From NCBI RefSeq assembly GCF_014196495.1, contig NZ_JACIDT010000002.1, positions 310,001-374,000 of the forward strand: a DNA stretch of 64,000 nt, given 5' to 3'. Shown here piece by piece: positions 6,940 to 20,007 of the stretch (its first letter is position 1; each line of letters starts with the position of its first letter). Source of the stretch: Sphingobium jiangsuense (GTDB taxonomy: Bacteria > Pseudomonadota > Alphaproteobacteria > Sphingomonadales > Sphingomonadaceae). The notes beneath the pieces are model-generated. The model made no database searches. It saw nothing but the letters and a program-made list of their open reading frames with translations, and had not been told where the DNA came from. A program made the position numbers and the translations under genes.

Positions 6940-7446
6940 ATGATGGGGAACGACGAATTCGAGCAGGATGGCCAGGAGGCCGAGCCGCTGGACATGCTTG
7001 CCAGCTATTTCGAGGCGAACGGCTGGACCTTCCAGCAAAATGGCGAAGACGAGATTTCCGCCAAGATTCCGGGCAGCTGGGCGCAATATGAAATCCGCGC
7101 CATCTGGCGGCAGGAAGATCAGGTGCTCCAGCTTCTCGCCATGCCCGACATCCGGGTGCCGGAAGACAAGCGCGGCACGATCTACGAGACGATCGGCCTG
7201 ATCAACGAACAGCTCTGGCTGGGGCATTTCGAGTTGTGGTCGTCCACCGGCGTCGTCCTGTTCCGTCACGGCGCGCTGCTCGGCAGCAGCGAGACGCTGA
7301 CGCTCGATCAGGCGCAATTGCTGGTCGAGGCGGCGCTGGACGAATGCGAACGCTTCTACCCGGTGTTCCAGTTCGTGCTGTGGGGCGGGAAAACCCCGGC
7401 CGAAGCGATCATCGCGAGCATGATCGAGACGCGCGGGGAGGCGTAG
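6940..7446 (+). CDS. YbjN domain-containing protein
   Basis: A 168-residue cytoplasmic protein of the YbjN family, which has a type III secretion chaperone-like fold. Visible blocks are PLDMLASYFEANGWTFQQNG, the conserved DIRVPEDKRGTIYETIGLINEQLWLGHFELW and the C-terminal CERFYPVFQFVLWGGKTPAEAI. The family occurs next to proC in many sphingomonads. Its biochemical function is not established. Two ATG codons (6940, 6943) are possible starts. Confidence 0.88.
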   Translation: MMGNDEFEQDGQEAEPLDMLASYFEANGWTFQQNGEDEISAKIPGSWAQYEIRAIWRQEDQVLQLLAMPDIRVPEDKRGTIYETIGLINEQLWLGHFELWSSTGVVLFRHGALLGSSETLTLDQAQLLVEAALDECERFYPVFQFVLWGGKTPAEAIIASMIETRGEA

Positions 7447-7455
7447 GGGCGCTCC

Positions 7456-7487
7456 CGTCATCCCGGCGCAGGCCGGGGGGGGGGGGG
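7456..7487. repeat. Partial copy of intergenic repeat ending in a 13-G run
   Basis: The stretch CGTCATCCCGGCGCAGGCC matches the first half of the repeat at 5694-5717 and then runs into thirteen consecutive G residues (7475-7487), 48 bp before the proC start. The homopolymer is either a hypermutable tract or an assembly artefact at a hairpin. Confidence 0.7.
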
Positions 7488-7535
7488 CTCCGTCGCGTGC
7501 TGCCCAAGACGCCCGAAAGCAGAAAGGTTGCAACG

Positions 7536-8354
7536 ATGCTCGAACGCTTTGATCGGCCGCTGTTTCTGGTCGGATGCGGCAATATGGCCGGGTCCATGCT
7601 GTCCCGCTGGCTGGAAAGCGGCCTTGCGCCCGCCCATGTCACGGTACTGCGGCCCAGCGGCAAGCCGGTGGGCAACGGCGTCCGCGTGATCTCCTCCTTT
7701 CCCGACCGCCTGCCCGAAGAGGCGCTGGTGGTGCTGGGGATGAAGCCGCAGCAACTGGCGGCCGTCGCGCCGGACCTGAAGGCGCGCTGGCGCGAGGACC
7801 TGATTCTGGTGTCGCTGCTGGCGGGGGTATCGGTGGGGCGCCTGGCGGAGGCCGTCGCCCCGCGCGAGGCGGTCGTGCGGGTGATGCCCAACACGCCGGT
7901 GGCGCTGGGCAAGGGAGTGTGCGCGCTCTACGCCGACCCGGCGCTCGATGCCGCGCGGCGGGAGGCGGTGCAGGCGTTGATGGTGCCGCTGGGGCTGGCC
8001 GAATGGATCGCCGGGGAAGAGCAGTTCAATCTGGTGACGGCGCTGACCGGCTGCGGCCCGGCCTTCCTCTTCCGCTTCATCGACGCGCTGGCGAGGGGCG
8101 CCCGCGATCTGGGGCTGGAAGAGGGGCAGGCGCTGCGTTTCGCCACCGCGATGGTGGAAGGCGCGTCGGCGCTGGCGGCGCAGGCCGACACGGACCCCGG
8201 CACGCTGGCGGACCGTGTCGCCAGCAAGGGCGGCATGACGCGCGAGGGGCTGGACGTGATGGACAAGGACCGCCGCCTCGACGCGCTCATCCGCGACACG
8301 CTGAGCGCCGCGCGCGACCGGGGCGAGGAACTGGAGCGGCTTTCGGCGGGCTGA
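7536..8354 (+). CDS. proC: Pyrroline-5-carboxylate reductase
   Basis: Last step of proline synthesis, reducing 1-pyrroline-5-carboxylate with NAD(P)H. The 272-residue protein begins MLERFDRPLFLVGCGNMAGSML, the Rossmann nucleotide-binding motif. It has VVRVMPNTPVALGKG near residue 115-130 and the family signature TALTGCGPAFLFRFIDALARGA near 170, then DRVASKGGMTREGLDVM. The ATG at 7536 follows AGAAAGG by 9 bp and matches the family N-terminus; longer in-frame extensions would read through the upstream repeat and are rejected. Confidence 0.95.
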   Translation: MLERFDRPLFLVGCGNMAGSMLSRWLESGLAPAHVTVLRPSGKPVGNGVRVISSFPDRLPEEALVVLGMKPQQLAAVAPDLKARWREDLILVSLLAGVSVGRLAEAVAPREAVVRVMPNTPVALGKGVCALYADPALDAARREAVQALMVPLGLAEWIAGEEQFNLVTALTGCGPAFLFRFIDALARGARDLGLEEGQALRFATAMVEGASALAAQADTDPGTLADRVASKGGMTREGLDVMDKDRRLDALIRDTLSAARDRGEELERLSAG

Positions 8355-8367
8355 TATATTTCAGGAT

Positions 8368-8501
8368 CGGTCTACAGTCAGTTCAGGCGGAGCCGAGAAA
8401 CATGCTATCCGAGCTACCGGAGCGCAGCGACCTAAAGGGTCGTGAGCACCGACGCGCAGGATAGCGCGGTTTGCAGGCCCGCATGGGCTGAACAGAGACC
8501 G
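8368..8501. ncRNA. Structured repeat element, copy 1 (candidate RNA)
   Basis: A 134-nt intergenic element related to 19399-19567. Nested pairings can be drawn: outer CGGTCT/AGACCG (8368-8373, 8496-8501), GTTCAG/CTGAAC (8381-8386, 8488-8493), GCTATCC/GGATAGC (8404-8410, 8459-8465), and an apical hairpin CGACC-TAAAG-GGTCG (8428-8442). The other copy has different bases in several of these stems but still pairs. Strand and transcription are unknown; it could equally be a hairpin-forming DNA repeat. Confidence 0.55.
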
Positions 8502-8510
8502 CTCCTAGAC

Positions 8511-8539
8511 TCTGTCCTGTTCAGATTGAACCGGACAGA
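8511..8539. terminator. Hairpin between convergent proC and marR
   Basis: Arms TCTGTCC and GGACAGA (8511-8517 and 8533-8539), with an inner GTTCA/TGAAC pairing after one mismatch and a 3-nt loop. It lies between convergent genes, so a bidirectional terminator is plausible, although no clear T tract follows on the plus strand. Confidence 0.5.
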
Positions 8540-9349: not shown

Positions 9350-9424
9350 TGGGGCGTAGCCAAGCGGTAAGGCAGCGGTTTTTGGTACCGCCATGCGCAG
9401 GTTCGAATCCTGCCGCCCCAGCCA
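9350..9424 (+). tRNA. tRNA-Gln (anticodon TTG), CCA encoded
   Basis: A 75-nt cloverleaf. The acceptor stem is TGGGGCG (9350-9356) with CGCCCCA (9414-9420), discriminator G and encoded CCA (9422-9424). The D arm contains AGCCAAGCGGTAAGGC, the anticodon stem GCGGT/ACCGC encloses TTTTGGT giving anticodon TTG, and the T arm reads GCAGGTTCGAATCCTGC. It is the only tRNA in the window. Confidence 0.97.
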
Positions 9425-19398: not shown

Positions 19399-19567
19399 CT
19401 AGGGTCGATCGATATTTAGTTCAGGTGGAGCCGAAACCGAAGGCGACCGTAGGTCAAAATCGTGATTTTCGAGCATCGGAGCGCAGCGGACTTAAGGTCC
19501 GTGAGCACCGAAGCGCAGAAAAGCGCGATTTGCAGGCCCGCATGGGCTGAATATCGATCGACCCTAG
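19399..19567. ncRNA. Structured repeat element, copy 2 (candidate RNA)
   Basis: A 169-nt element closed by a perfect 17-bp inverted repeat (19399-19415 with 19551-19567). Inside it GATTTTC/GAAAAGC (19464-19470, 19518-19524, one mismatch) and an apical hairpin CGGAC-TTAAG-GTCCG (19487-19501) correspond to stems of copy 1 at 8368-8501 with compensatory changes. Conserved unpaired blocks are GCGCAG, TGAGCACCG and GCAGGCCCGCATGGGCTGA. The right end covers the stop codon of nsrR. Confidence 0.6.
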
Positions 19568-20007
19568 GCCGCCTGCCCCGGCGGGGCGGACCAGCTGGCC
19601 AGCAGGCTTTCCATCATGTCGCGCTTGTCGAGCAGGTCAGCGAGGCTGTAGTCGTCCAGCACCGCCAGAAAGGCCGCCAGCGCCTTGTGCAGCGCGGCGG
19701 TGAGGCCGCAGGCCGGGGCGATGACGCAGGACCCGCAATCGACGAGGTCGAATCCGTCCTCGGTATGGCGGACGACCTGCCCCACATTGATGTCCTGCGG
19801 CGGACGGGAAAGGGCGATGCCGCCATTGCGGCCGCGCACGCTGTGCAGATAGCCCGCGTTCACCAGATCGTTGACGACCTTCATCAGATGGTTCTGCGAT
19901 ATGTCGTAGGACCGGGCGATTTCGGCGATGGAGCACAGCCGCCCCGGCCGCGCGCCCAGATAGAGCAGCACACGCATCGCATAATCAGTATAGCGCGTGA
20001 GGCGCAT
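19564..20007 (-). CDS. nsrR: NsrR-type Rrf2-family nitric oxide-sensing repressor
   Basis: A 147-residue Rrf2 protein: MRLTRYTDYAMRVLLYLGA, winged helix (IAEIARSYDISQNHLMKVVNDLVNAGYLHSVRGRNGG) and three cysteines C91, C94 and C100 in DCGSCVIAPACGL. These match the iron-sulfur ligands of NsrR, which is inactivated when NO attacks the cluster. It is divergent from a truncated globin and near a flavohaemoprotein, the expected NsrR regulon. Two dyads in the intergenic region are probable operators, so the gene may also control itself. Confidence 0.93.
   Translation of the reverse strand: MRLTRYTDYAMRVLLYLGARPGRLCSIAEIARSYDISQNHLMKVVNDLVNAGYLHSVRGRNGGIALSRPPQDINVGQVVRHTEDGFDLVDCGSCVIAPACGLTAALHKALAAFLAVLDDYSLADLLDKRDMMESLLASWSAPPGQAA

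Follow-up and report, generated by a model that had tools for sequence, protein, structure and literature searches.

Several families of short, folded, intergenic repeats are known in bacteria, and the closest ones are described here as the available portions of the cited papers present them. The BOX element of S. pneumoniae is small, folded, intergenic and mobile and supplies stop codons; a stop codon at the extreme 3′ end was reported for 36 of 58 overlapping coding sequences, without strong evidence of truncation (PMC3049150). RUP, ERIC, NEMIS and similar miniature elements (MITEs) measure ∼100–200 bp, have TA termini and give long-stem transcripts (PMC2229807). Among alphaproteobacterial repeats, the CIR elements of Caulobacter and Brucella are intergenic, end in TA, and consist of two arms and a linker with GANTC at the loop (PMC2229807), and Bru-RS1 and Bru-RS2 of Brucella are intergenic palindromes of 103–106 bp (PMC3163539, PMC10800456, PMC2267715). 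IS711, of the IS5 family, inserts at YTAR with duplication of TA (PMC3163539) and has done so in one Bru-RS (PMC3163539, PMC10800456). As far as these excerpts go, MITEs with TA termini and folded transcripts, and the supply of stop codons by BOX, are already known (PMC2229807, PMC3049150).

The element studied here is present in two copies in a 64,000-nucleotide stretch of the Sphingobium jiangsuense genome (the window). It shares with BOX all the features listed above, whereas BOX, compared by description from the same partial text, is modular (boxA/B/C) and belongs to a different phylum (PMC3049150); our family is mostly alphaproteobacterial, and its covariation and strand asymmetry have been measured. 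It has the ∼100–200 bp length and terminal TA of RUP, ERIC and NEMIS (PMC2229807, in part), and set beside their descriptions it offers variable yet paired arms, a most-conserved inner core and polar anchoring at stop codons. Like CIR, as excerpted, it is an alphaproteobacterial intergenic repeat with TA termini (PMC2229807), but it forms one hairpin and GANTC occurs in 8 of 35 copies from the S. jiangsuense genome (own copies), so it does not fit the CIR description. The Bru-RS palindromes, also alphaproteobacterial, are shorter; compared by their partly available descriptions and not by sequence, they may be relatives. IS5-family insertion sequences (loci L362 and L357) likewise insert at YTAR and duplicate TA, but they encode a transposase and the element does not. 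The element family differs from the described systems in its widely shared core, covarying arms, measured strand preference and polarity at stops. No description of it was found in a literature search that largely left out subscription papers, so a printed account is possible. The motif CGGAGCGCAGCG did not occur in the literature text searched, and the literature on RIME1 yielded nothing relevant to the element.

Two long hairpins in the window

Both structured copies reported in an initial annotation of the window exist. Each forms a single long hairpin, of −76.2 kcal/mol (z −7.5) for copy 1 and −94.2 kcal/mol (z −10.2) for copy 2, and 0/200 shuffles of either folded as well. The annotation had the loci right, but the covariance model corrected their ends from 8368–8501 and 19399–19567 to 8363–8507 and 19401–19566 (Table 1). 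The apical hairpin (CGACC/GGTCG in copy 1, CGGAC/GTCCG in copy 2) and the middle stem (GCTATCC/GGATAGC versus GATTTTC/GAAAAGC) are as it described. Calling the closing arms unrelated in sequence was too strong: the 19-nt 5′ arms of the two copies are identical at 13 of 19 positions, and both fall within a single covarying family. The arms were also said to be complementary in each copy; the family's pairs do covary, but the outer arms of copy 1 pair imperfectly, with mismatches in part.

Table 1. Coordinates of the two element copies and adjoining genes in the window
Feature	Position	Strand	Remarks
Element copy 1	8363..8507	+	145 nt, sense orientation; ends by covariance model
5′ outer arm, copy 1	8363..8381	+	pairs with 8488–8506, with mismatches
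3′ outer arm, copy 1	8488..8506	+	partner of 8363–8381
Conserved apical core, copy 1	8410..8459	+	internal loops and apical hairpin; part common across orders
Element copy 2	19401..19566	+	166 nt; final CTA is the reverse complement of a TAG stop
Extra 22-nt module	19434..19455	+	in copy 2 and some other copies
Conserved apical core, copy 2	19470..19518	+	
Rrf2-family regulator gene	19564..20007	−	TAG stop 19564–19566 is the 3′ end of copy 2
proC-like gene	7380..8354	+	immediately upstream of copy 1

Copy 1 starts 8 nt past the stop of the proC-like gene, which scored 195.1 bits against the pyrroline-5-carboxylate reductase profile (cut-off 196.75), and the next stop is 98 nt away; it is among 8 own copies that are not anchored at a stop, and copy 2 ends on the stop of the Rrf2-family gene. 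Directly past copy 1 (8511–8539) lies another, separate inverted repeat of 13 nt (TCTGTCCTGTTCA/TGAACCGGACAGA). At the end of the nearest proC relative, in genome G017, there is an independent, reversed copy of the element (L214); the TAG stop of that proC-like gene is made by the element, and an adjoining remnant resembles, by reading, an IS5-type transposase. At the gathering score, Rfam matched neither element copy, its sole match in the window being a tRNA gene (9350–9421), and a search of the copy 1 region at E values up to 10 gave one chance-level match.

Copy number and distribution

A covariance-model search, as suggested in the initial annotation, found 40 places in the own genome and relatives mostly in Alphaproteobacteria. 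The model, built from 23 own copies (R1), gave 68 matches in this 4.8-Mb genome, 27 of which repeat a place already matched on the opposite strand; the count of 40 distinct places derives from these matches and leaves out one weak match of 69 nt (C1:37808). A blast search gave 42 matches, with two places each split in two. One best-strand match was kept per place, and second sightings in L006 and L030 were removed. Elsewhere, R1 matched 23 of 25 genomes of the genus, 50 of 199 sampled from the family, 18 of 385 from the class and 21 of 398 from the phylum (one of them outside the class), and none of 16 genomes belonging to other families of the order; these large searches were run under strict filters, so the counts are lower bounds. 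Copy number varies widely among related genomes.

The apical-core pattern occurred in at least 115 stretches of named genomes, in hosts that include Sphingobium, Novosphingobium, Mesorhizobium, Phyllobacterium, Devosia, Inquilinus, Bosea and Asticcacaulis. At E 0.001, 79 of the first 80 of these loci matched R1, and at E 0.01 so did 34 of the remaining 35; the first 80 were used for the folding, G-U and stop counts below, and the other 35 for the R1 match only. Three plasmid queries matched 12, 27 and 23 of 72,556 records, mostly large Sphingobium and Shinella replicons, and phage records held no element match. Two loci of the plasmid of NZ_CP084753.1 (Roseateles sp. XES5, flagged UNVERIFIED_ORG) are 85–87% identical to Shinella, and the organism name of this record looks wrong.

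Two Bacillus loci of 42–47% GC matched R1 (47.4 and 58.2 bits), and a Paenibacillus locus held the apical core without an R1 match. In these three loci (L096, L174 and L182) the GC content is low and host-like and the core sits in hairpins with other arms; both strands of the two Bacillus copies fold about equally well. The core may predate the alphaproteobacterial family or be the more mobile of the two. Typical alphaproteobacterial copies were also seen in two records named Mycobacterium sp. KBS0706 and one named Bacillus sp. 2B10 (L136, L158 and L173; the latter host's locus has 69% GC), records that are likely mislabelled or contaminated. It is safe to call the family mostly alphaproteobacterial, and not safe to call it only alphaproteobacterial.

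Paired positions covary among copies

The initial annotation proposed selection on secondary structure. Two copies are insufficient to prove this, so the proof is supplied by counts over 23 own copies with shuffled and slid controls. In these copies, 97.7% of the cells in 56 pairs are standard pairs, and 29 of the 56 pairs show compensatory changes on both sides. The covariation score was 0.371, compared with 0.150 for shuffled alignments and at most 0.092 when partners were slid by 1 to 3 columns, and 0/500 shuffles attained any of the observed covariation measures. Compensatory change, the general hallmark of an RNA family, is therefore present beyond both controls. Absence of covariation in other copies had been named in advance as the outcome that would count against selection; on checking, the opposite was found.

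The copies have the apical core CGGAGCGCAGCG ... GTGAGCACCG in common, and the inner core is their most conserved part. Their outer arms, of types that include AGGG..TCGACATTC and GAGACCGTTTGA, show numerous compensated differences from copy to copy, among them exchanges of C-G for G-C. In L013 (1444–1608) the extra module lies reverse complemented on the 3′ arm, instead of on the 5′ arm as in other copies, a hint of arm-to-arm copying.

The fold is specific to one strand

Copies were oriented by covariance-model score, which combines sequence and structure; in the named-genome loci, the strand of the plain core pattern was the model's strand in 80/80 cases, and six further matches lacked the pattern. 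For 170 of 173 distinct copies (matches of 121–201 bases, identical sequences merged), folding as RNA gave the sense strand (that of the initial annotation) greater stability than the complementary strand, the mean difference being 14–16 kcal/mol. In agreement, G-U exceeded A-C at paired positions by 537:47 in 99 copies from the own genome, relatives, and Sphingobium and Shinella plasmids, and by 422:55 in the 86-copy named-genome set. Among the variable outer-arm pairs alone the ratios were 177:22 and 90:24, respectively. As the structure behind these counts came from the sense strand, a control structure was derived from the antisense strand; with this, A-C exceeded G-U in the two large sets (128:45 and 107:44), and the 23-copy set gave G-U to A-C ratios of 40:16, against 147:13 with the sense-derived structure. 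The orthologous Shinella copies L273 and L274 have three stem differences, all paired on the sense strand through G-U; other copy comparisons (L377/L378 and L367/L371) include broken pairs. Copies within one genome, and the orthologues L273 and L274, are not independent of one another.

A DNA palindrome free of strand preference would not give this asymmetry. Single-stranded DNA could give it too, and RNA is therefore the likelier selected form but not the only reading. Together, the 23-copy covariation and the strand-specific G-U pairing bear out selection on secondary structure.

Insertion is precise at YTAR

Among Sphingobium chromids that are 92–97% identical at the loci concerned, three sites carry the element in some strains and lack it in others, and each shows a precise insertion at YTAR (CTAG, CTAG and CTAA) with TA duplicated. 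Site A is CTAG in the empty L373 and L374 and CTA[element]TAG in L368 and L375; in the depositors' annotation this CTAG forms the overlapping stops of two convergent genes, and both still have a stop after insertion. Site B is an empty CTAG in L376 and is filled with TA on both sides in L371 and L377; in a further filled strain, L378, CA takes the place of the left TA. Site C is an empty CTAA in L379 and filled in L367, and a second empty strain, L380, has TCAA, which is not YTAR. At the other two sites, B and C, the TA is part of the TAG with which the right-hand gene ends. A Shinella empty site (L343, compared with L275; stop TGA) fits insertion after T, the duplication being not clear. TA is retained on both sides in 11 of 31 stop-anchored own copies; in older own copies the gene-side TA, held by the stop codon, seems to have been retained and the far one lost. 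An exact TGA/TGA duplication was found, by reading, in 3 of 13 copies listed as anti (defined below) in G078.

With a length of ∼145 bp, paired terminal inverted repeats and no transposase gene, the element has the make-up of a bacterial MITE, and comparison with empty sites gives the corresponding target-site duplication, TA, at the three polymorphic sites. The initial annotation had offered an RNA family or a hairpin-based mobile repeat, and both halves of this reading hold: the first through covariation beyond controls and G-U pairs kept on one strand, the second through these precise polymorphic insertions.

At the same insertion site B, L377 and L378 differ from L371 by whole internal hairpin modules. 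At site A, L368 and L375 differ at 1 of 145 element positions and are 93.2% identical over the whole locus; strong constraint, homogenisation and independent insertion are alternative accounts of this near-identity.

The IS5 family includes subgroups named IS427 and IS1031. One full-length IS5-family insertion sequence (NCBIfam transpos_IS5_3; L362, in G008) is sited as CTA-GAGACTGTT...AACAGTCTC-TAG and follows the same target rule as the element; its first nine bases match element arms in another host, G078. Searches of G000, G008, G012 and G078 with 18–19-nt end patterns gave no IS-like facing end pair, save pairs spanning neighbouring elements. Solo ends in G012 and G008, some again at stops, were read as broken elements or chance sites. 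Most of the inverted repeats around 19 DUF4096 loci were weak and were set aside.

One element end usually lies on a stop codon

The placement of copies at stop codons had gone unnoticed in the initial annotation. In the own genome, 31 of 39 copies (the place C14:85577, outside the best 150 matches, was left out) have an end within 4 nt of the stop of a flanking gene. Of these, 29 are anti, i.e. the element 3′ end lies on the stop of an opposite-strand gene, none is sense alone and two are anchored at both ends. Of 99 copies (from the own genome, from six relatives and seven from plasmids), 73 are anchored (55 anti, 14 sense and 4 both); the orientation bias is absent in G012 (5 anti, 8 sense). 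In the named-genome loci, 46 of 71 copies are anchored at a tolerance of −6 to +2 (13 of 21 sphingomonad, 33 of 50 other), counting matches of at least 136 bases that lie at least 300 bases from the locus end; one copy is common to both sets (L119 = L335). Loci not named as sphingomonads have stops at 32 right and 2 left element ends, according to a gene caller whose calls in other orders are less certain because it was trained on the codon use of the window. When checked on L339, this caller recovered all 15 stops of the annotation and made one additional call.

Of the 12 plasmid copies retrieved initially, seven (L273, L274, L275, L278, L367, L368 and L371) have the right-hand stop on the last three element bases in the depositors' annotation. 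In L277 the element and the end of its gene overlap by a single base; no stop is annotated at the element ends of L276, of L370 or of the one site represented by L369 and L372. Ten anchored own proteins were scanned against family profiles: Kup reaches 622/622, one SDR protein reaches 252/252, and the remaining ones differ from the profile end by a few residues or by a short tail, apart from one without a family and one with a weak match only. The anchored genes that could be judged are full length, not truncated.

A preference for YTAR alone was rejected as the cause of this placement. Stops account for 4 of 19 YTAR sites in non-coding parts of the window and for 14 of 83 such sites in the own loci, compared with 31 of 39 observed, so that copies sit at stops with about four times the frequency expected from YTAR sites. 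With placement uniform over the gaps they occupy, 9.2 of 39 copies would be expected at a stop. A simple TA-target transposon does not explain the orientation bias or the excess of stops over other YTAR sites. In L274 (2496–2641) the 5′ CTAG is now CCAG and the left gene, as annotated, continues far inside the element, an instance in nature of an element-borne stop being lost.

Discussion

We consider the family to be a non-autonomous miniature element of IS5-like type, under selection for its RNA fold and inserting at stop codons, with a probability of roughly 0.7. The element would be one long hairpin of ∼145 bp, inserted precisely at YTAR with TA duplicated, as at the three polymorphic sites. 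The common target rule, together with the nine-base match between L362 and G078 arms, suggests that an IS5-family-like transposase moves it in trans. Since such an enzyme would require matching ends, the outer arms would stay complementary while they diversify, and any end pair may work if both ends match and suit the resident enzyme. The sense RNA (or sense single strand) probably has a task of its own, in the life of the element or in its tolerability to the host, and this job would explain why the inner fold and the strand-specific wobble pairs are kept. Stop codons would be a safe site because the first bases of the element complete TAG, TGA or TAA and the protein stays whole. Points against this reading are the end-pair searches of four genomes that gave no IS-like partner, the minority of anchored own copies with TA on both sides, the exceptions at sites B and C and at the Shinella site, the plasmid copies with no annotated stop at their ends, and the orientation bias and excess of stops, which go beyond a simple TA-target transposon.

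An unlikely alternative is that the element is a domesticated cis-acting RNA boundary at gene 3′ ends, which limits antisense or convergent transcription into the gene. The structured strand would then be made only by polymerase arriving from downstream, with mobility as the mode of spread. This agrees with the orientation of the 73 anchored copies (55 anti against 14 sense, 4 both), with the 32 right against 2 left ends at stops outside named sphingomonads, and with the convergent context of 48 of 99 copies; it sits poorly with the lost bias in G012 (5 anti, 8 sense), the widely different copy numbers of related genomes and the presence polymorphism between strains. We are similarly doubtful of a hairpin that homes to stop codons in a fixed orientation, its own structured RNA helping to recognise or copy into the site. 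Any stop (TGA, TAA or TAG) would in that case be rewritten by the element's first purines, leaving the protein undamaged.

Insertion templated by RNA is improbable. Here the gene strand at the stop would prime copying of the element RNA from its 3′ end, and this priming would account for the polarity and the precise junction of the element 3′ end with the gene strand, as well as suiting the orientation bias and the kept sense-strand pairing. However, TA duplication at the palindromic CTAG and full-length insertions resemble the work of a DDE transposase, and both orientations occur in G012 and G008.

Slightly less probable still is arm complementarity that arose without selection, by template switching or arm-to-arm copying in a DNA palindrome. 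The C-G to G-C swaps of the outer arms and the reverse-complemented module on the opposite arm of L013 speak for it, but such copying would erase the conserved internal mismatches and G-U pairs, and the strong strand asymmetry extends to the variable outer pairs (177 G-U, 22 A-C). As a sole cause it is contradicted, although it could contribute to the way the arms evolve. A trans-acting small RNA family repeated by chance would have the conserved single-strand blocks and the fold, but the tens of copies that some genomes hold, the duplicated target sites and the placement at stop codons make it a negligible candidate.

Bacterial miniature elements are usually viewed as decaying DNA, whereas here a fold is kept by compensatory change within single genomes. 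The family, read as a mobile IS5-like miniature element, occurs across much of a bacterial class, shows a strand preference that can be measured and sits on stops with base precision. Two questions become accessible to testing: what maintains folding in a mobile hairpin, and by what means a transposable element locates the harmless spot at the end of a gene. In a number of alphaproteobacterial genes, the stop codon is supplied by a mobile element.
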